From assembly GCA_012034075.1 (NCBI GenBank), contig JAAURD010000020.1:1-38986 (forward strand): DNA of 38,986 bases. Direction: 5' to 3'. Shown piece by piece: positions 16,750 to 38,986 of this stretch; position 1 is the stretch's first letter; each line of letters opens with the position of its first letter. The notes below the pieces were generated by a model, which ran no database searches, was not told the DNA's origin, and saw only the letters and a program-made list of their open reading frames with translations. Position numbers and translations under genes: made by a program. This DNA is from Chloroflexaceae bacterium. Lineage in GTDB: Bacteria; Chloroflexota; Chloroflexia; Chloroflexales; Chloroflexaceae.

Positions 16750-18677
<1,928 letters not shown>

Positions 18678-25121: not shown

Positions 25122-25198
<77 letters not shown>

Positions 25199-25366: not shown

Positions 25367-28300
25367 TCAGGGTTGCGTCTTACAGGCGTTATTCCATGGT
25401 TGCACGCTACCACCCTGAACAATCGGACTGTTGCCAACCTGGTCGCGGGTCTCATCGACCAGCTTGAGCTTGCTAAAGACCAGACGGTCAACGATAGAGC
25501 CATCCTCACGCATCCAGAGGTTAATGGTATAGACACCCGGTGCGGGGATAGTGATCTGGACATCGCCGTTCACCTGAGAACGCCACTCAAACTTGTTCTT
25601 CGCCCAACCACCCAGGCCAGTGCCGCCAGCAGTCAGGTTGGGGCCATCATCGATGCTCAGGTGGATGGAGTAATCAGAGCTACCATTGTCTGAACGGCCG
25701 CGGACCGATGCGTAGTATTCACCGGCCTCACTGAAGTAGACCTCGTATTCCAGCCGAGGACCGGTCAGGTTCTCACTCGTGTTGGTACCACTATTCGGTC
25801 GTGCTTCCATATAACCATCGCCGGTATAACCGCTCTTATTCGTCCGTTGTTGCCATGAACGACTGATCGCGGTTTCCTGGACCATATAGTTCTCTGCTTC
25901 AAAGGCGAGCAGACCGCCCGACTCAATATAGCGGCATTCCCCAAAGGCGGTTGCCGTATCGACCGGTGTGACCGTCACATTGCTAAAGTTGGCCTGCACC
26001 GTCTTGCCATCGTGGCGCGATGAGACCGCCATACCAACGTAGAGGTCCGGGTTGAGCTGACCAGGAGCAAAGCCGTATGATCCCACCGGTGTCCACGGGC
26101 CAGCCTGGCTTGATGCATAGCTGCCGGTCAACACATTGCCACGCTTCTCAATCTTGAGCCAGACAGGCACACGGCTGTTGCCAATGCCAGGCGCCTTGAA
26201 GCTAGCACGGGTGATTTTATCTTCACCATCCACCCTGCGGTAGGCCAGCTGCACAGTGTTACCTGCATTGGGCTGTCCTATTGCATTGATGATCAGACCA
26301 GCGGCCTCGTAATCGAGCGAGTTGCGCACGATCAAGCCAGCTTTAGCCCAGGTTTCCAATGCTCCCTCGTATGACTCAAAGTTGGTGACCTGCGCCACGA
26401 TATCAAAGTCACCTGTGACGGTTTGATAGACAAAGCGGAAGCGGTCGCTATTATCGCTATTACCTCCATCATCGTAGGCAATGCTATTGCCCGAACCACA
26501 AACCAGCCAGGTTCCGTCGGGTTGTTCAATCACGGTACCGGCGGTGCTGCCAGAGCGCAACCCAATATCCTGTGAGAGCCAGTTGGGGCTGATGATCATA
26601 TTGAAATCGGCCACACAGGTGGTAGGTGGCTCAATCTGAACCGTAATCTCCTGCCAGTTCGTCCACAGCGCACCACCAGTCGGGGTGGCATCCTGGGCGC
26701 GTACACGCAGGGTGTAGATGCCCTGAGTCATATTTTGCAGCTGGCTACAGCCCGGACAGATGGTCTTCATATCCAGAACGTTGTAGCAGTTATCGCTGGC
26801 GTCACTGCCAAAGAAGCAGAAGCGTCCGGTATTATCGACCCGCGTAGCGACTGGGTTACCAACAGCATCGGGCAGCAAGAACGGATTGCCACTGGGATGG
26901 ATCAGCTGCATCTCCACTTTTGCCGGTGGATCGCTGGGGTCTTCAAAGACTTCAACTTCAAAGTCAGTATCCAGGAACGACAAGACCAGTTCACCATCGG
27001 TGGTTGGGTTGAGATAGTTAATGGTGAGATTGGCCGCCGGAATGGTAAACGCATGGGTCAGCCAGGTTGTCCAACGGGTGACATCGCCATTGATATCGGC
27101 CCGTGCGCGAACGCCCAGGGTATAGTCCATCGCTTCCAGGTTTTCATACAGCGCACTATCTAGTGTGGGGCAGGGGTCGCCATCGCTGCCAGCCAGACAG
27201 AACCGGCTGCTGTCGTCGCTGCCGCTTAGGATTTCCAGGCCATTTTGATCAACGAGACGGTATTCGACCTGATCGATCAGGCTGATTTGACCCAGATAGG
27301 TAGCGGTTGCTTCAAACGCGGTTGCTGCCAGGTCGGTGATGGTGCTGGCATCAAGTGGCGTGACGATAGCCAGGTCGATGGGCACTGGTACCATCTGGAA
27401 GTTGACCGAGGTCCATTCCGACCAGCGGCTCGCTACATCGTCGTTGTCGTTGGCCTGCGCCGATACCCACAACGTGTAGTCACCCATCGGCAAGGTTTCA
27501 TAGCCAGGCATTGGCGTACATGCGCCGGCCTGTTCATCCATACAATACGGCACGGCATTGTCGCCCAGTAGGGCTCCAGCATTGCTGGCAACGACAACAT
27601 CGTTGTTATCGCGCACTTCCATCAGCACACGGCGGATACCATCGCCGTTGGCGCCACCCATCACCGGGTTGTTCGCCCGTGTGCCAAAGCGGAAGTGGCC
27701 TGGTCGGTAAAATTCACCATCAGGCGTGACTGGTGTGGTCGGGTTACCCACGTAGGGCTGCAAGTTCAATGGTGCTGGGATAATCTCAAAGGTCTTGGTG
27801 ACCCAATCGGACCAGCCACCGCCCAGCGCTTTGGCCTGTGCCAGCACCATATAGCGGCCATCCGGCAGTTCCAGCGGCTTGTCGAAGTTTTCGAGCACAC
27901 CACACTGCGTCGGGGTCTCGTCATCCAGACAGTAGGGCAGGTCCAGATCAAAACGCTCGCCACCGCTGGGGATAGATACCCAGGCATTGCCATCCCAGCT
28001 ACGAACCAGGATGCGCACCTGTTCAACGCCATCACCATTGACCGGGATAACCCCATCTTCGGTGGCATCGGCCTCGGCCTCAATCCGTACCTGCTCGGCC
28101 AGATAGAGTTGACCATCGGGTGTGACCGGCACAGTGATGATCACGTCCATTGGCTCAGCGGGCATTTCAAAGGTGGTTGTCTCCCAGTCTGACCAGCGTC
28201 CATTGACCCCATCGTCCACAGCTCGGCCACGTGCTTCCAGCGTGTAGATACCGGGGGCCAGGGTATCTTGCCAGTTGCTCCAGATAGCACACGCTGCACC

Positions 28301-31300
28301 ATCCAGGCCAAAGGCACAGAAACGTGGGCCAATCTGAATTTGATCATAGATCGGTGTATCACTATCTAATGGCCCAAAGATGCGGAATTGCACTTCGGAA
28401 ACACCATCGCCATTCACCGGTGATGAGATGCTGGTGTCATAAGCTTCGACCTCAAACCGCGTATCGTCATCGTCCAGTAGTTCCTGGCCTGCTGTAGCTG
28501 GTACCAGGAAGTTCACATCAATTGGCGCGGAGCCAATCTGAAACTCCAGTTCAACCCACTCCGACCAGCGACCACGATTGCCATCATCCACCGGACGAGA
28601 GCGCGTTTCAATCTTAAATGTGCCACTAATCGCTGTATCCAGATCATCCATCACGTTACAGATTTCATCTACCTCGCCATAGACACAGTAGTAGAGAATG
28701 CTGGAGTCATCCGCGTCTTCGCGGGTCGAGTCATCAATGTCATCGCCAACATCAAAGGTCTTCTGATAGATTGGGTCAGCATTGTTGGGTTCAAACACGC
28801 GGAACTCAACATCGCCCACGCCAGCGCCGCTCTCGCGGTCGTCAAGCGCCTCATCGAGGAAGTCCGGATGCGGGTCTTCGTCATTGGCATCGTAGATACG
28901 TGTTTCAAAGCGAGCTTCATCCGGTGAGTCGACCGTGCCTACATAGGTACTGGCATACTCAATATCCATTGGCGCCCGAATAATCTCAAATTCTGTCTCA
29001 GCCCACAGCGACCAGAGGCCCGCTGCATCCTTGGCGCGTGCCCGCATAATATAGGTACCGAAGGGCAAATCGTCCTCATCGTCAAAATCATCCATCACCG
29101 CACACTTGCCGGAGTCATCACCATAGGCGCAGAAGCTATCGTTATCGAAGGTGTCGGCCATGGTGCTACCAATTTGATTGCCAGGATCCACACTGTCACG
29201 ATAGAGTTCAAATTCTACTTCAGCTACACCATCGCCATTGTTGTTGCCGACGAGCGTGTTATAAGCGGTGACCTCGACCCGTACCTGTTCGGGGTGGTAG
29301 ACCTCTGAATAGCTCAATGGCTCGGTGAACTCAATCGTAATCTGGGCCGGCACAATCTCAAAGGTCGTGGTATACCAGTTGGACCAGCGACCAAAGTAGC
29401 TGCGTGCCCGTGCCTCAATGGTGTAGATACCTGGTGACATATCGAGGAAATTGGTCATCGTGCGACAGAGACTGCTTCCTTGATACTTGTAGACACAGGG
29501 AATATCACTGCCTGAGCTTGTCGTTTGTGTCCATATGACAGTGCCATCCGGATCGGTTACGATGTATTCGGACTTGGATGGCGGTTCGCCCTGAATAGTG
29601 GCATTACTGACCTCAGTCTCAAAGCGACTGGCCTCTTCGCTGGCAACTTCCAGACCGTCTGTATCTGGATTGACAAAGGTAATGTCGAAAGGACCAGGAA
29701 CCAGCTCAAAGGTCATTTCATTCCAGGCCGATGCACCACCTTTCGATGAGACAGCACGTGCTCGGAGCTGATAGGTGCCATAAGGGATAGCTGTATCACC
29801 ATCGGGATCACCCTTGAAGAAATTCCACATTTGTTCACAAGGTGGGTTATTTCCACTCTTACTATTAAAGAAACAGTAAGTTACACTGGTATCCCTGAAC
29901 TCCGAACGCATGATTTCACCAGTATCGAGGTTGCGCACCTCCATATAGACTTCTTTGATATCGTCACCATTGCTGTTACCGCCATAACGCGGGTCCCAGA
30001 CTTCCACTTCAAAGCGAGCATGCTGAGCGCTATAGAGCTGCATCCCATCGGTCATCTCTTGCTTCTTAAAGGTGGCATTGTTATTGCCGTCCACACCGCC
30101 ATCATAGTAACCCCCATAGAAGTGGAACTCCAGCGGAGCAGGCTTAACGATGAAGCGCCGTCGTAGCCATTCAGTATAGGTACTTGTACTATCCTGTGCC
30201 CGTACCCAGAACTCCCAGGTGCCTGGCAACAGCTTGTTAAAGTTATCGATGGTCATCTGGGGGCAGTTACCGACAGAATAGACGGTACCACTGTTGCCAT
30301 TAAAGCAGAAGATATCACGAGACCCCATAGAGCCACTAATCTCCTGTTCGAGCGGTTGTACAGTAGAGTCTTCCAGATAGTACATGCGCATTTCAACCCG
30401 TTTCAGGTTTTTGCCCTTTGAGTCGATAGCATAGGCGCCAAACTCGGTATTTTCAAGGCCATCGACCTCCATGTTATCCACCATTTCGGTGGTATCAACC
30501 AGCGGCGTAATCACCACACTGGATTCTTTGGTGATATTCAGTAAGCGCACATCCTGTGCTGAAACGAGTCCCGAATTACCGACGGCGTAGGCCGTCAGGG
30601 TATAGATACCTGGGCTCAGGCTATTGTAGGTACTGGTCGGCATCTGGTTGCACGAACCGCCATAGGCACAGAACCGTGCACCATAATCCGGGCTATTGGT
30701 AACCTGGATTGGCTCATTGTTTGGCCCACGCAAACGGAAGATCACATATTGAATACCATTGCCGTTCTGCGCCCCCGGAATACTGAGGTCGCGTGCCTGT
30801 ACCTCAAACCTCGTCTTGCTGATATCATCAATCAGAATCGGCTCATCCGGATCGGCCGGTGCAGCTGGCTCGATGATAAACATCTCGAGCTGTGAAGGAA
30901 GCGTGATATTCGGGTCCAGATAGTTGGGCGTGCCATCGCCATTGCTATCGGGACAGGGCGGGCCGGGCTGACCGGCGGGACACTCAGCGGAGGTATCAAT
31001 GCCATCACCATCGTCGTCCGGGTCCAGATAGTTGGGCGTGCCATCGCCATCGGTATCATACGCGTTGGGGTCGCCCGGATTACCGTCGATCCCAAACACC
31101 CCATCAGGATATTCATAGCGCGTTTGCAAGCCATCGCCGTCATCGTCGGCATCGCGGAAGTCCGGGTTGCCATCACCATCGGTGTCGCGGCAGCCGGTGG
31201 TATCGTAGGGCGGGCTAGCACTCAAAGATGGACATTCAGCTCGGTTGCTCAAACCATCACCGTCCATATCACCATCGGGATCGAAGATAACGGGATCGAG

Positions 31301-32625
31301 ATAGTTGGGCACGCCGTTGCCATCGGTATCAAAACAACCGAGGAAGGGCAATGACGGATCAAACGTCGTACACTCCTCGGACGTATCAATACCGTCGCCA
31401 TCGTCGTCCGGGTCAAGATAGTCAGGTATCCCATCACCATCGGTATCGGCGTTATTTGGCTCGACATAGTCGGGCAAACCATCGTTGTCCTGGTCTGAAC
31501 AGTTTTCCAGGTCTGCATTACCACCACATTCCACAATATCAAGGATGCCGTCATAATCGATATCATCGATTGGCCCGGCGCCTTGCGGAATTTCGTTCTG
31601 ATCTAAAAAGCCCGGTTTCCCATCGAGATCGAGATCCGGACAGTTTGATGGTGTCGGACATTCTTCGCGGTCAGTGTAACCATCATTATCCGAGTCGGGA
31701 TCGATAAAGTTGGGCAGCGTATCTTTGTCTTCATCGCAAAGCACACTATCGTCGCTCTGGGCGGCGGGACAGTTGTTCTCGACATCATCGGGGATGCCAT
31801 CGTTGTCGGAGTCGAGATCAAGATAGTTGGGAATGCCATCGGCATCGGCATCGCCATCGCCTTCAACTGCATCGGGAATGCCATCGCCGTCACAGTCGTA
31901 GCCAGCCACACCTTCGGTACACAGATTATCAACAATCAGCTGACTCGGGTCGCTAATTTCACCAAAGGTGATTTCTGAGTTGTTCATTGCCAGGGTATAG
32001 TCGGATGTGAGGCGTACCTGATCGGCAAAAGCCGGCGCCAGGGCAAAGAAGAGCTTATAATCCATCGACACACTGACATGCATGTAGCAGCCCTGCTGCA
32101 TGCGTGGGTTGGTGCAGTAGCAGGGTTCGCTGCCACAGACGTCATCGTGTGGGTTACCATTAAAGTTGATATCACGCAGCACCTGAATCCGAATATACCC
32201 ATCGTCATAAAACTTGCTGTTAGTCTCATCAAATGGGATATCAAGATTGAGCGCGGTAAAGTCGCTGGTGCCAGGCTCTGGAATACGGGCGGGGGCCGTG
32301 CCACTGGCAATATCGACCACACCATTGCTATTCAGGTCGTGCAAATTGACGGCGTTGATACCGCCGCTATCACCTGACTCAAAGCGAATCCGGTTAATAA
32401 TTTCGTACTTATCAATATATTCCAGGTCCGGTATCCAACGGTTGTTCTCATCGGTGGTAAACCGGCTGCCATAGGCAGCACCCTCTTGTGCTGCGTTATG
32501 TAAGCCTGCAGGGCGAAAAAGATCAAACCCAGGTCGATGGCGGCCGCCAGCAAGAAAAAAATCAGCGTTGACGCCAGGGCAAACTCGACCAGTGCTTGAC
32601 CAGTTTGACGTATATGTTGTCGCAT
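25367..32625 (-). CDS. Giant TadE-anchored multidomain surface protein, one apparent frameshift
   Basis: About 2,400 residues. The N-terminus, in a neighbouring frame until about 32507, is TadE/TadG-like: QTGQALVEFALA then the membrane helix LIFFLLAAAIDLGLIFFAL. Restoring one G there (ALQ-GLHNAAQEGAAYGS) joins it to the long frame. Next comes a region with cysteines, then about 12 thrombospondin type 3-like calcium loops (DSDNDGIPDDVE type, about 31925-30905). Eleven Ig-like repeats of 110-150 residues follow (about 30890-26620), each with a C-x(5-15)-C pair and a closing WSxW...FxIxPAP. A concanavalin-like DUF1349-type domain (about 26620-25950) and a CBM6/35-like domain (AFEAENYM...) end the protein. 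It is probably a cell-surface adhesin or filament component using calcium and binding glycans. ATG 32625 has GAAGG 7 bases upstream. The gene follows a TadE gene and ends at a strong terminator. Confidence 0.85.
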
Positions 32626-32659
32626 TGCCATACCTTCTTTCTTCATGTATCAACACTGT

Positions 32660-33220
32660 CTAAGGCTGACACGGTTCCAGCACCGCGTCATCATTCGACG
32701 GGTCGCCATCGTCGTCGGGGGGAACATAGATACCCAGACTAACAATCGTGCGCTCCGTCTCCACATGAACCTTCATACGACCCAGGTCATTACCAATAAC
32801 GGGAACAAGCTGCCACAGCGGTGTCAGTGGTTCGATGGTATAGGTAATACTGACTTGTACGGGCTTGCCCATTGCTCGCCCAAACCCATCGCCGCTCTCC
32901 TGGGGATAGGCGATACTCACGTGCTCCGTATAGTTCCGTGTGAGATCCGGAAACAACGGAACATCTTCTTGCACCGCATTCAATATCTGACGCACACAGT
33001 GATCGTCGGTACTGATGGGTGCAACTTTGTTGGGAAAAGGTGGCTGCTTCGATGCCATCTCGGCTCCATTGCGTGCAGCCTGGTAGATGCTCGAAAAGCC
33101 ATAGATATAATGGGCCATATCGATAATGCCAAACAAAATAATAAACAAGAGCGGTGCAATCAGCGCCATCTCAACTAACGATTGGCCCCGTCGCTGCTGC
33201 AATACCGTGTTGTCATCCAT
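32660..33220 (-). CDS. TadE-like pilus-assembly/surface protein
   Basis: A 186-residue protein with the TadE signature at its N-terminus: RRGQSLVEMALIAPLLFIILFGIIDMAHYIYGF, given here as motif RRGQSLVE (10-17) plus a helix at about 18-40, then QAARNGAEMAS. TadE-type proteins are minor pilin-like components of Tad (Flp) secretion systems, held in the membrane with the C-terminus outside. The rest is soluble with two cysteines. ATG 33220 is chosen because AAAGGAG precedes it by 6 bases; upstream in-frame ATGs lack this. It lies 34 bases before the giant TadE-anchored protein, and both are expressed from the promoter at 33305-33333. No Tad ATPase or secretin genes are in the window. Confidence 0.85.
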   Translation of the reverse strand: MDDNTVLQQRRGQSLVEMALIAPLLFIILFGIIDMAHYIYGFSSIYQAARNGAEMASKQPPFPNKVAPISTDDHCVRQILNAVQEDVPLFPDLTRNYTEHVSIAYPQESGDGFGRAMGKPVQVSITYTIEPLTPLWQLVPVIGNDLGRMKVHVETERTIVSLGIYVPPDDDGDPSNDDAVLEPCQP

Positions 33221-33304
33221 GGTTCTCTCCTTTGTCACGCTCATGCGGTGTTCCCTGCGTATGAGTCGTCGCCGAATCGTAAACCCTGACATCATGTTAC
33301 TATT

Positions 33305-33333
33305 TATTATAGCCTTGCTCGCAATCAGAAACA
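33305..33333 (-). promoter_or_regulatory. Promoter of the TadE operon
   Basis: Minus-strand TTGTTT (33333-33328) and TATAAT (33310-33305) are 17 bases apart. It faces the TadE-like gene at 33220, leaving a leader of about 80 bases. Confidence 0.6.
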
Positions 33334-33434
33334 AGGGTTTGACATAGTACTATTCGCCTATCATCAGACAGAAATAGGTCAATTGTTTGACTTATAGTGG
33401 TAGTAGGGTGGCTAGATAGCTGGATCGTTAGCTC

Positions 33435-36393: not shown

Positions 36394-36960
36394 ATGGCGA
36401 GTAAGTATACGGCTATTTTGCAGGCGGCACTTGACCTTGTTGCGGAGTATGGCTTTCGCGGGACGACGATGGCGCTAGTTATTCGGCATTCGCGGGTGAG
36501 CGCGGGGACGATTTACCACCATTTTGCGAGCAAAGACGAGATGATCCAGGCGCTTTATCGGCAGATTAAGACGGGTTTTTACCAGGCGCTGCTGCAGGGT
36601 GAGCCGCAGCACCAGCCGTGGCCGCGCTATTTGGAGCAGCTCTGGCTGAATGCGTTTCACTATGCGATTGAGCACCCCAGGGAGACGAGCTTTCTGGAGC
36701 AGTATGACCATGCGCCGGATTATCCGCGCGAGGATGGGGCTGAGCATGAACTTTCTGCGCCGCTTGAGCCGATGATGCAGCGGGTACGGGCTGATCTGGC
36801 AGCGGGGGTGCTGCTCGATTTGCCATTTGATGTGCTGTATGAGTTGACGCTTGGCGTGGCGTTGGCGTTGGCGCGGCAGCAGATTGCTGGTCGGATTGTG
36901 TTGAATGAGATGCAGCAGCGCGATATTGCGCGGGCGTGTTGTCGTGCGGTGTCCAGGTAA
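36394..36960 (+). CDS. TetR-family transcriptional regulator
   Basis: A 188-residue repressor. Residues 1-50 form the TetR helix-turn-helix domain: ILQAALDLVAEYGFRGTTM, then VIRHSRVSAGTIYHHFASKDEM with the hallmark GTIYHHF. The remaining 140 residues are the helical ligand-binding part, which does not reveal the ligand. A 34-bp palindrome overlaps its promoter, so it probably represses itself. The dehydrogenase gene 77 bases downstream in the same direction is the likeliest co-regulated partner. Codon use leans to G/T at third positions relative to other genes, but I could not quantify this. Confidence 0.92.
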   Translation: MASKYTAILQAALDLVAEYGFRGTTMALVIRHSRVSAGTIYHHFASKDEMIQALYRQIKTGFYQALLQGEPQHQPWPRYLEQLWLNAFHYAIEHPRETSFLEQYDHAPDYPREDGAEHELSAPLEPMMQRVRADLAAGVLLDLPFDVLYELTLGVALALARQQIAGRIVLNEMQQRDIARACCRAVSR

Positions 36961-36980
36961 TGCTTGCTTGCAACTGGCGC

Positions 36981-37004
36981 GTGCGGCTACAAGCCGCACC
37001 TACG
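36981..37004 (-). repeat. REP-like palindromic repeat, copy D
   Basis: On the minus strand it reads CGTAGGTGCGGCTTGTAGCC then GCAC, the same repeat as copies A-C near 4.1-4.3 kb, with a perfect GCGGCT / AGCCGC core apart from one loop change. It lies between tetR and the dehydrogenase gene. Confidence 0.65.
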
Positions 37005-37037
37005 TTTGAACGTATGAGATCAACAAGGAGACAACGG

Positions 37038-37978
37038 ATGCGAAAATGGACGGCTGCGGATATACCGGACCAGACAGGGCGTCTGGTGGTTGTAACGGGG
37101 GCGAATAGCGGGCTGGGTCTGGAGACGACGCGAGCGATGGCGCAGCGCCAGGCCCATGTGATTATGGCGTGCCGCAATCTGGAGAAAGCAGAGGTGGCTC
37201 GCCAGGAGCTTTTGCGTCAGCTGCCACAGGCGCAGCTGACGGTGCGAGCACTTGATCTGTCGCGTCAGGCGTCGGTGCATGCGTTGCCGAGGCGTTTTGT
37301 GCGGAGCATCAGCGCCTTGATCTGCTCTTTAATAATGCGGGGGTGATGGCGCCGCCACGCCGCGAAACCGAGGATGGGTTTGAGTTGCAGTTTGGGACAA
37401 ACCATCTGGGCCATTTTGCGCTGACTGGGTTGCTTATTGCGCCGTTGCTGGCAACGGCGGGTAGTCGTGTGGTGACCACGACCAGTGTAGCCCATCATAC
37501 GGGGAAGATCAACTTTGCCGATTTGCAGAGCAAGCGGCAGTATCAACGCTGGCTGGCGTACGGTCAGAGCAAGCTGGCGAATATCCTGTTTGCGTTTGAG
37601 TTACAGCGGCGTTTGCAGGCGGCCGGTTCGGGCACGATGAGTGTGGCGGCGCACCCTGGCTATGCCAATACCCATTTGCAGAGCAGCGGCACCAGTATCG
37701 GTGCGAAGAGTGCCGATTATTATGTGATGCGGGTGACCAATGCGTTGGCGCAGAGTGGTGCAATGGGCGCATTGCCGCAACTGTATGCGGGTACGGCGTC
37801 GGGGCGTGGTTGGCGGTGATTATTATGGGGCCAAGTTTCTTTGGGTATGGGGGCTATCCGACAGCGGCGGCGGCCTAACCCGGCGGCGTTTGATGCGGAG
37901 GTTGCGGCTCGGCTGTGGGCGGTATCGGAGGAGTTAACGGGTGTGCGCATTGATTTGGGGGTCGGGGCGTCGGTTTGA
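37038..37978 (+). pseudogene. Short-chain dehydrogenase/reductase (retinol-dehydrogenase-like), four frameshifts
   Basis: Reading across frames gives one SDR of about 312 residues that would reduce or oxidise a carbonyl or alcohol with NAD(P). Visible are VTGANSGLGLETTRA (TGxxxGxG cofactor motif), [12 protein letters not shown] (NNAG), TTTSVAHH with the catalytic serine, and YGQSKLAN (YxxxK). The tail GGDYYG, PNPAAFDAEVAARLW and AVSEELTGV is also conserved. Frame changes fall near 37284 (one T missing), 37803, 37829 and 37872 (each mended by removing one G). Start ATG 37038 has AAGGAG upstream. Four indels in one gene suggest either a poorly read stretch or real decay. Its position after tetR suggests control by that repressor. 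Confidence 0.85.
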
Positions 37979-38186: not shown

Positions 38187-38986
38187 CTACCGCTCGTTGA
38201 GTTGCTGCTGCATCATGGTCATTTGCTGTTTGAGCAGCTCGATATCCTGCTGCTGGGTGTCGAGTTGCTGCTGCTGAGCCGTGATGGTTTGCTGCTGGGT
38301 GTCGAGTTGCTGCTGCTGGGCAGCGTTTTCGCTCTGTAGCGCCGCGTTTTTGCTCTCCAGCGTGCTGATGGTCTGCTGCTGCTCTTCGACCAACTGGTGC
38401 AGGCCCTGGATGGCGGCGAGGGCAACGCCGTCGGCATCGACCATGCTGATGCTGGTGTTGTTTTCGCCCAGCCCAAAGGCGGCGTGGAAGTCCTGGGCCA
38501 TGGGACCCATATGGCGAATGCTGTCGGCCTGGCTGAGATAGTTCCAGGTGACGATAGGCATCTGGGCGACGAGATTGAGCACGGCTTGCGGATCAACGGG
38601 GGTGATATTGGCTTTGGCGTTGCGGTCGCTGGTGCAGTTCCAACTCCCGCCACCGGCAGCGATAGAGCAGCCGGTGGTGCCAGCACTATTGGTGACAAAG
38701 CGCACGCCACCGGTCGCTCGCACGGCAAACTGGTTGTCTGCCGTGGAGGTGAAATCGGCATTGGTGCTATCGGCCCAGACGAAGGCGCCCAGGTTGTTGG
38801 CTTTTGCCTGCCGCCCGGCGGCAAAGCTATAGCTACCGATGGCCTCATTGAAGACACCCCCACCGACCGTGGCATAGTTGCCGCTGGCGGTATTGCTGCT
38901 GCCGCCGCCCACCGTGGCAGCGAAGCCGCTGACCGCATTGCTGACACCGCCGCCCACTGTGGAATTGATACCGCTAGCCGCATTGC
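38187..38986 (-). CDS. Surface protein with head repeats, S74-type chaperone domain and coiled coil (N-terminus outside window)
   Basis: Only the last 265 or so residues are present; the frame runs off the window end. Upstream parts carry trimeric-adhesin-like head repeats of the GGGxxNxASGxxATVGGG type, then SFAAGRQAKANNLGAFVWAD. A beta segment with ADNQFAVRATGGVRFVTN follows. The TSDRNAKANITPVDP segment opens a peptidase S74/intramolecular chaperone domain, which helps fibres trimerise and can cleave itself at the serine of the SDRN-type motif. The end is a glutamine-rich coiled coil (TISTLESKNAALQ, then QQQQLDTQQQ repeats). The stop TAG at 38189 is followed in frame by a membrane-anchor sequence. 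Confidence 0.85.
   Translation of the reverse strand, partial: NAASGINSTVGGGVSNAVSGFAATVGGGSSNTASGNYATVGGGVFNEAIGSYSFAAGRQAKANNLGAFVWADSTNADFTSTADNQFAVRATGGVRFVTNSAGTTGCSIAAGGGSWNCTSDRNAKANITPVDPQAVLNLVAQMPIVTWNYLSQADSIRHMGPMAQDFHAAFGLGENNTSISMVDADGVALAAIQGLHQLVEEQQQTISTLESKNAALQSENAAQQQQLDTQQQTITAQQQQLDTQQQDIELLKQQMTMMQQQLNER

Follow-up and report, generated by a model that had tools for sequence, protein, structure and literature searches.

The window analysed here is a stretch of 38,986 nucleotides from a Chloroflexaceae bacterium (assembly GCA_012034075.1, contig JAAURD010000020.1, positions 1 to 38,986), and our subject is a giant open frame on its reverse strand that lies directly behind a TadE-like gene. 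The encoded product, of about 2,400 residues, has four kinds of module and runs from a TadE2 globular domain through calcium loops and eleven immunoglobulin (Ig)-like Cys-pair repeats to a concanavalin A (ConA)-like domain and a GH115_C domain. A first-pass annotation of this DNA had proposed the same succession of loops, eleven repeats, ConA-like domain and carbohydrate-binding-like C-terminus, and this overall anatomy is borne out. We think it probable that the giant represents the second tadE in the tadE-tadE-tadG set of the Chloroflexales, enlarged by a giant modular extension. The features are as follows, with E values for the repeats taken from leave-one-out (LOO) searches.

32660 to 33334 (-): TadE1, an ordinary TadE-like minor pseudopilin gene directly upstream of the giant (PF07811, 48.9 bits)
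25367 to 32656 (-): giant open frame, 2429 amino acids (aa) as read from an upstream GTG (at 32656)
32503 to 32610 (-): frame A, pilin signal of TadE2 with its hydrophobic helix (GQALVEFALA...), start ATG at 32625; positions 1-36 of the TadE2 profile (A2), 59.6 bits
32503 to 32521 (-): frame-change zone between the TadE helix and the rest, placed by the overlap of two profile matches and by the translations
31958 to 32521 (-): frame B, globular part of the TadE2 pilin (NAAQEGAAYGS ... FFALAPAF), running on into the giant open frame; A2 positions 31-194, 140.8 bits, E 9.5e-41
30884 to 31921 (-): calcium-loop (thrombospondin type 3-like) region, residues 246-591, 18 DxDxDG motifs; TSP3_bac sub-threshold
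30521 to 30883 (-): Ig-like Cys-pair repeat 1, E 1.5e-19
30140 to 30520 (-): Ig-like repeat 2, E 2.5e-15
29693 to 30139 (-): Ig-like repeat 3, E 1.9e-25
29348 to 29692 (-): Ig-like repeat 4, E 1.4e-24
28973 to 29347 (-): Ig-like repeat 5, E 1.1e-30
28526 to 28972 (-): Ig-like repeat 6, E 5.3e-17
28154 to 28525 (-): Ig-like repeat 7, E 3.4e-31; predicted beta sandwich
27776 to 28153 (-): Ig-like repeat 8, E 7.7e-22
27386 to 27775 (-): Ig-like repeat 9, E 1.9e-24
27032 to 27385 (-): Ig-like repeat 10, E 6.3e-17
26627 to 27031 (-): Ig-like repeat 11, E 5.1e-20
25937 to 26623 (-): predicted ConA-like domain (best Foldseek match 3mep)
25472 to 25930 (-): C-terminal carbohydrate-binding-like domain (GH115_C; PF17829, 60.6 bits)
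25122 to 25198 (-): tRNA-Arg just downstream of the giant; no tadG follows

The TadE pair and the change of frame

The gene that precedes the giant, described in the annotation as a normal TadE gene, is confirmed as such by its PF07811 match, and it is homologous to the first tadE of the cassettes of relatives (35-44%). The annotation also had a TadE N-terminus leading into the giant. The TadE signature itself is real, as the N-terminal segment of the giant scores 26 to 26.6 bits with PF07811 in frame A (curated cut-off 22.9), but it stands in a different reading frame from the remainder. Class III-like prepilin signals are cleaved after a glycine, and a signal of this kind is present in the segment (RQTGQALVEFALA), where a G precedes QALVEF, position +5 is E and cleavage would fall at G|QALVEF. 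The Q, A, V, E and F of the motif are invariant in all 19 aligned TadE2 rows; the A2 profile represents 19 TadE2 proteins. The match to this profile is split, with positions 1-36 in frame A and 31-194 in frame B, which indicates a single frame change within 32503-32521; the frame of the giant thus begins inside the TadE2 pilin domain.

We read the frame change as most likely, if not provably, a sequencing or assembly indel, because other genes of this genome are split in a similar manner. In the same window gyrB occupies two frames (17502-18677 and 16750-17499 (-)), as does a short-chain dehydrogenase gene (36936-37346 and 37343-37819 (+)), and a Kelch gene on contig C238 occupies three frames where its homologue in the relative L035 is a single open frame of 994 aa. 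We also considered whether the frame change reflects phase variation or a conserved slippery site, and rejected this, since among the 66 genomes with a TadE2 match a two-frame gene occurs only here and in G006, and the profile positions of the breaks differ.

The modules of the extension

The eleven repeats span residues 592-2010. Hidden Markov models built from ten repeats recover the eleventh in all eleven cases (E 2.5e-15 to 3.4e-31), and every repeat has a Cys pair with a spacing of 6-14 residues, the last having four cysteines, so that the proposal of eleven repeats each with a Cys pair stands. The WSxW-type ending attributed to every repeat is less general: W[ST]xW is present in eight of the eleven (4 to 11), repeat 2 has YTEW instead, and repeats 1 and 3 have none. 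No tandem repeats were found in a search at the DNA level, from which we take the repeats to be well diverged.

Repeat 7 is predicted with confidence to be a beta sandwich (predicted local distance difference test, pLDDT, 93.6). When the repeat is compared with known structures the VIA Z score is 10.4 with 9kvu (root-mean-square deviation 2.3, 90 aligned) and 9.6 with 3pdd (2.4, 88 aligned), and the modelled fold is an Ig/FN3-like sandwich; Foldseek gave no match for the repeat model at E <= 0.001. Weak similarity links the second half of the repeat to the Y_Y_Y domain (PF07495), with three of 22 repeats matching at E <= 0.1 (the best at 0.0012) and none of the stretches over the domain threshold; the alignment of the repeat family has 22 rows. 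The annotation suggested that the Ig-like family may be undescribed, and this holds in that there is no Pfam domain-level match, but the fold is not new, and in the Y_Y_Y check the score summed over the whole protein, 53.8 bits, is over the family cut-off of 26.6 even though no stretch passes. We conclude that the fold of the repeat is known and that its sequence family has no name.

The end of the repeat (28154-28525 and other repeats), in which WSxW is accompanied by arginines on the preceding strand, resembles the WSXWS of cytokine receptors. We rejected the class I cytokine receptor FN3 domain as an identity for the repeat; the structural Z score is about 8 and is tied with many other FN3 domains, and the best sequence match (E 0.025) is not significant, for which reason the WSxW likeness is probably a convergence.

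The calcium-loop region contains 24% Asp, and its 18 DxDxDG motifs stand against 0.58 on average, and never more than 5, over 5000 shuffles. The TSP3_bac profile (PF18884) remains below its cut-off on this region (19.5 versus 25 bits), and the thrombospondin type 3 loops of the annotation are therefore supported by the motif count, far above that of the shuffles, but not by the profile.

The ConA-like domain is without any Pfam match. Its model (pLDDT 79.9) has 241 Foldseek matches at E <= 0.001, with E values down to 3.9e-9, and the folds matched include GH43 C-terminal domains and PL7 lyases; the homologous domain of L035 passes PF17851 (GH43_C2). The predicted fold and these matches agree with the concanavalin-like domain proposed earlier. 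The C-terminal domain, thought to be CBM6/35-like, matches PF17829 (GH115_C, E 2.3e-16), which upholds its carbohydrate-binding-like character; phmmer searches with this domain gave 0 matches. With a ConA-like predicted fold and GH115_C, the extension probably carries modules of recognisable adhesion or lectin kind, which would bind sugars. At the level of the whole giant, phmmer found 0 matches among PDB sequences at E <= 0.01. We rejected the NCBIfam families BamM and P_ac_wall_RPT as its identity, as both are under their cut-offs; BamM reaches 60.6 bits versus a cut-off of 315, and its best stretch is the calcium loops.

Relatives and the Tad machinery

The relatives fall within the order Chloroflexales (Chloroflexaceae, Roseiflexaceae and Kouleothrix). 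Searched with residues 55-245 of the giant, 48 of 150 related genomes give matches at E <= 0.001, mostly TadE proteins of about 200-250 aa, and the TadE2 profile matches 66 of the 82 genomes of the order. The best open frame is at least 510 aa in 11 of these 66 genomes (this one included), 282-395 aa in five, and shorter in 50. Three other genera of the family have the PF07811 N-terminus in the same frame as the repeats: L034 with a 1805-aa frame (the fusion itself 1797 aa) and three repeats (E 2.7e-8), L035 with 1267 aa and three repeats (E 3.3e-9), and L036 with at least 1305 aa, the frame reaching the contig end, and five repeats (E 4.2e-8). L037 (662 aa, contig-cut) has two repeats, and L084 and L085 have one each. 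In the sister family, L038 combines PF07811 (1.5e-8) and two PA14 domains (2.8e-39) in one frame, and in L094 (Kouleothrix) PF07811 is accompanied by a sub-threshold PASTA domain. Across the phylum PF07811 occurs in 92 of 151 sampled genomes, and the largest open frame among the matches listed is 998 aa, which places the giant at the extreme.

The repeat family has matches in 15 of the 82 genomes of the order (14 of 34 genera) and in eight of 400 genomes drawn from the phylum, two of them outside the order, with at most 10 candidates scored per genome. Among the proteins that bear it, L072 has PF07811 (8.3e-14) and one repeat, and L174 and L156 have TadE-like starts by eye. Another candidate for a modular pilin is at L079:2668-4302 (+), where a pilin-like start (by eye) is followed by PASTA repeats and one Ig-like repeat.

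In a tree of 30 TadE2 pilin domains, with rows trimmed to the pilin part, one side (96/93 support) holds ten short forms only, and the other holds all modular forms, plus one row cut by a contig end and three short rows. On this tree four changes of the Ig label are needed, at least two of them forced by well-supported branches, although we note that G000 and G017 have long-branched rows of unsure placement. A single origin of the Ig extension was rejected on this count, and the label changes imply at least two events of module gain, loss or exchange on a pilin base that itself stayed conserved. Second TadE proteins with PA14 on threonine-proline stalks, and no Ig repeats, are present in the sister family (L038:5882-8479 (-) and L042:7459-9300 (+)), and one genome has two TadE2-TadG cassettes side by side (L040, 7350-17157).

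A Tad locus, which the annotation had left to be looked for, is present elsewhere in this genome. Contig C238 carries genes for TadG, a Kelch protein, RcpC, TadZ (by eye and by position), TadA, TadB and TadC; a prepilin peptidase (Peptidase_A24) gene is on C148; and Flp has six matches on six contigs (C13, C158, C315, C168, C218 and C91), five of equal score. The six Flp matches represent either copies arising in the assembly or a set of almost identical major pilin genes. A secretin was not found in this genome, whose assembly is 88% complete; six of 14 control genomes have one. In L035 the operon order is TadE1, giant TadE2, TadG, a Kelch/Calx-beta protein, RcpC and TadZ, and in L034 it is TadE1, giant TadE2 and a TadG with a vWA domain; both have a MiaB-like gene upstream of the operon (by eye). 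The proposal of a Tad-exported surface protein is thus supported by in-frame TadE fusions in relatives, by operons with TadG, RcpC and TadZ and by the Tad machinery of this genome, but not by the frame in which TadE lies here. The calcium stiffening, the polysaccharide binding and the part in gliding or aggregation that the annotation also proposed are inferences.

Several other genes were recorded. A Kelch/Calx-beta surface protein is encoded between TadG and RcpC at both L090:11256-14976 (-) and L035:2325-5309 (-). C238 ends 389 bases upstream of tadG, and this stretch (L090:18014-18402) is proline/threonine-rich and without an intact gene; it may be the end of a further, stalk-bearing gene. 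At the end of the window, the product of 38187-38957 (-) includes a Peptidase_S74 (endosialidase chaperone) domain.

Competing readings and known systems

We favour the interpretation that the gene encodes a modular TadE-type minor pilin, an adhesin of the Tad pilus tip that binds polysaccharide, and consider this likely overall, its location and binding being what we infer from modules and relatives. A prepilin peptidase would trim the class III-like signal, and at the distal end of the Flp pilus the TadE2 helix would pack against TadE1 (and TadG). The extension, with its repeats and calcium loops, could then project as a long tether presenting two sugar-binding domains. The pilus might in this way stick to the polysaccharide of the sheath, the mat or neighbouring filaments, and such sticking may serve adhesion, aggregation or gliding.

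Several observations weigh against this interpretation. The TadE signature sits in an open reading frame of 104 aa (32332-32646 (-)) in a frame that differs from that of the giant, so that a TadE segment separate from the giant, which the annotation had named as the finding that would tell against it, is literally what this assembly contains; pilin module and extra module share one frame in L034, L035, L036 and L038 but not here. The TadE1-giant pair is not beside tadG, unlike its counterparts in L034 and L035, and has CorC and PRPP synthetase genes on its upstream side and the tRNA-Arg gene downstream. The Ig-like repeat also occurs in non-pilin proteins (L073, L078, L080 and L173); the notion that it is private to pilins was rejected on these cases, and the repeat is therefore no marker of pili.

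If the frame change is real, the gene could be a decaying copy whose TadE and giant parts have ceased to form a single protein. The break is present in the assembled sequence and the pair lies outside the usual tad operon, but about 2,380 codons past the break stay open and all 11 Cys pairs are kept, and the breaks in gyrB and the C238 Kelch gene point to assembly indels in general; we regard decay as unlikely. That TadE and the giant are two genes, the giant being exported or anchored otherwise as a sheath or S-layer-like fibre, appears highly improbable. Frame B does open upstream, at the GTG, and relatives have Ig-repeat proteins without a pilin domain; however, frame B continues the TadE2 pilin domain over the greater part of its profile, the fusion is in one frame in three relatives, and no signal peptide is seen at the frame B start (by eye).

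A different alternative is a Tad-dependent surface protein that is kept in the membrane or cell wall, with the TadE helix serving only as an export signal. No secretin was found for the protein to pass, large TadE proteins are many across the phylum, and in other bacteria a place at the tip comes only from models or arguments (PMC12075869, PMC12607857; statements here and below refer to excerpts of the papers cited). This is unlikely given the operon position with TadE1 and TadG in relatives, and those TadE-like proteins that have been studied are regarded as minor pilins (PMC12075869). Returning to the pilus-tip adhesin, a more elaborate version is that the pair, lying outside the tad operon, is a detached, interchangeable tip that the shared Tad machine could mount instead of a standard one, and that the extension is a force-bearing tether, with its length set by the copy number of an undescribed disulfide-loop Ig-like repeat (0, 1, 3, 5 or more, 11, depending on the lineage) and its two sugar-binding domains providing filamentous Chloroflexota with grip for gliding or aggregation; we consider this rather unlikely.

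Proteins of related design are known in other pilus systems. PilB and PilC of Streptococcus sanguinis (see also PMC9934059) are type IV minor pilins in which, as in the giant, an adhesive module is grafted onto a pilin module, and the extra module of PilC is ConA-like (PMC8179133). Modular pilins of that type were sought by the pilin motif IPR012902, whereas the giant is TadE-type (Tad/IVc), and the 'most extreme case' in that account has 860 residues with 12 copies of one motif, compared with the size and four module kinds of the giant. The modular-pilin idea would thereby be extended to TadE proteins. No TadE with these modules was found by title or abstract in open-licence PubMed Central.

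Variable TadEFG tips are also described. The Kil tips of Myxococcus xanthus (KilL/M/N), like TadEFG, are TadE/F/G-like minor pilins with variable exposed domains and extra tip gene sets; there the large module is on the TadG-like KilN, whereas here it is on the second TadE, with lectin-like domains on a long repeat tether (PMC12075869). In Caulobacter crescentus, CpaL/TadG is likewise a minor pilin of the Tad type that bears a grafted module and has been modelled as part of the tip; the CpaL module is a vWA domain (PMC12607857), which in L034 sits on the separate TadG neighbour. The large module of the giant would thus belong to another tip subunit than in Myxococcus and Caulobacter. Its relatives, with 0 to 11 repeats and ConA, PA14, PASTA or CBM ends, constitute a natural series for the study of pilus-tip evolution.

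Within the Chloroflexota, rcpC-tadZABC, tadEEG and flp are given as the only pilus genes of Chloroflexales, the same gene set as here; the excerpts list the genes and do not describe a giant TadE (PMC7332563). Gaisin et al. report pili near the septa of gliding filaments and propose that pili drive gliding motility; what these pili hold on to is not stated in the excerpts (PMC7332563). For this role, lectin-like ends on a TadE make a concrete candidate. Litorilinea has Tad pili and an unrelated DUF11 hook protein, and this GhlA grappling hook protein of Litorilinea aerophila is likewise a giant Ig-like chain on a Chloroflexota cell, but it is built of 49 DUF11 domains (PMC13319060), and DUF11 is not among the Pfam matches of the giant at E <= 0.05 or 0.1. 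Modular pilins and variable Tad tips have thus already been published, and the giant is an extreme variant of them, distinguished by its unusual size and its unnamed repeat.

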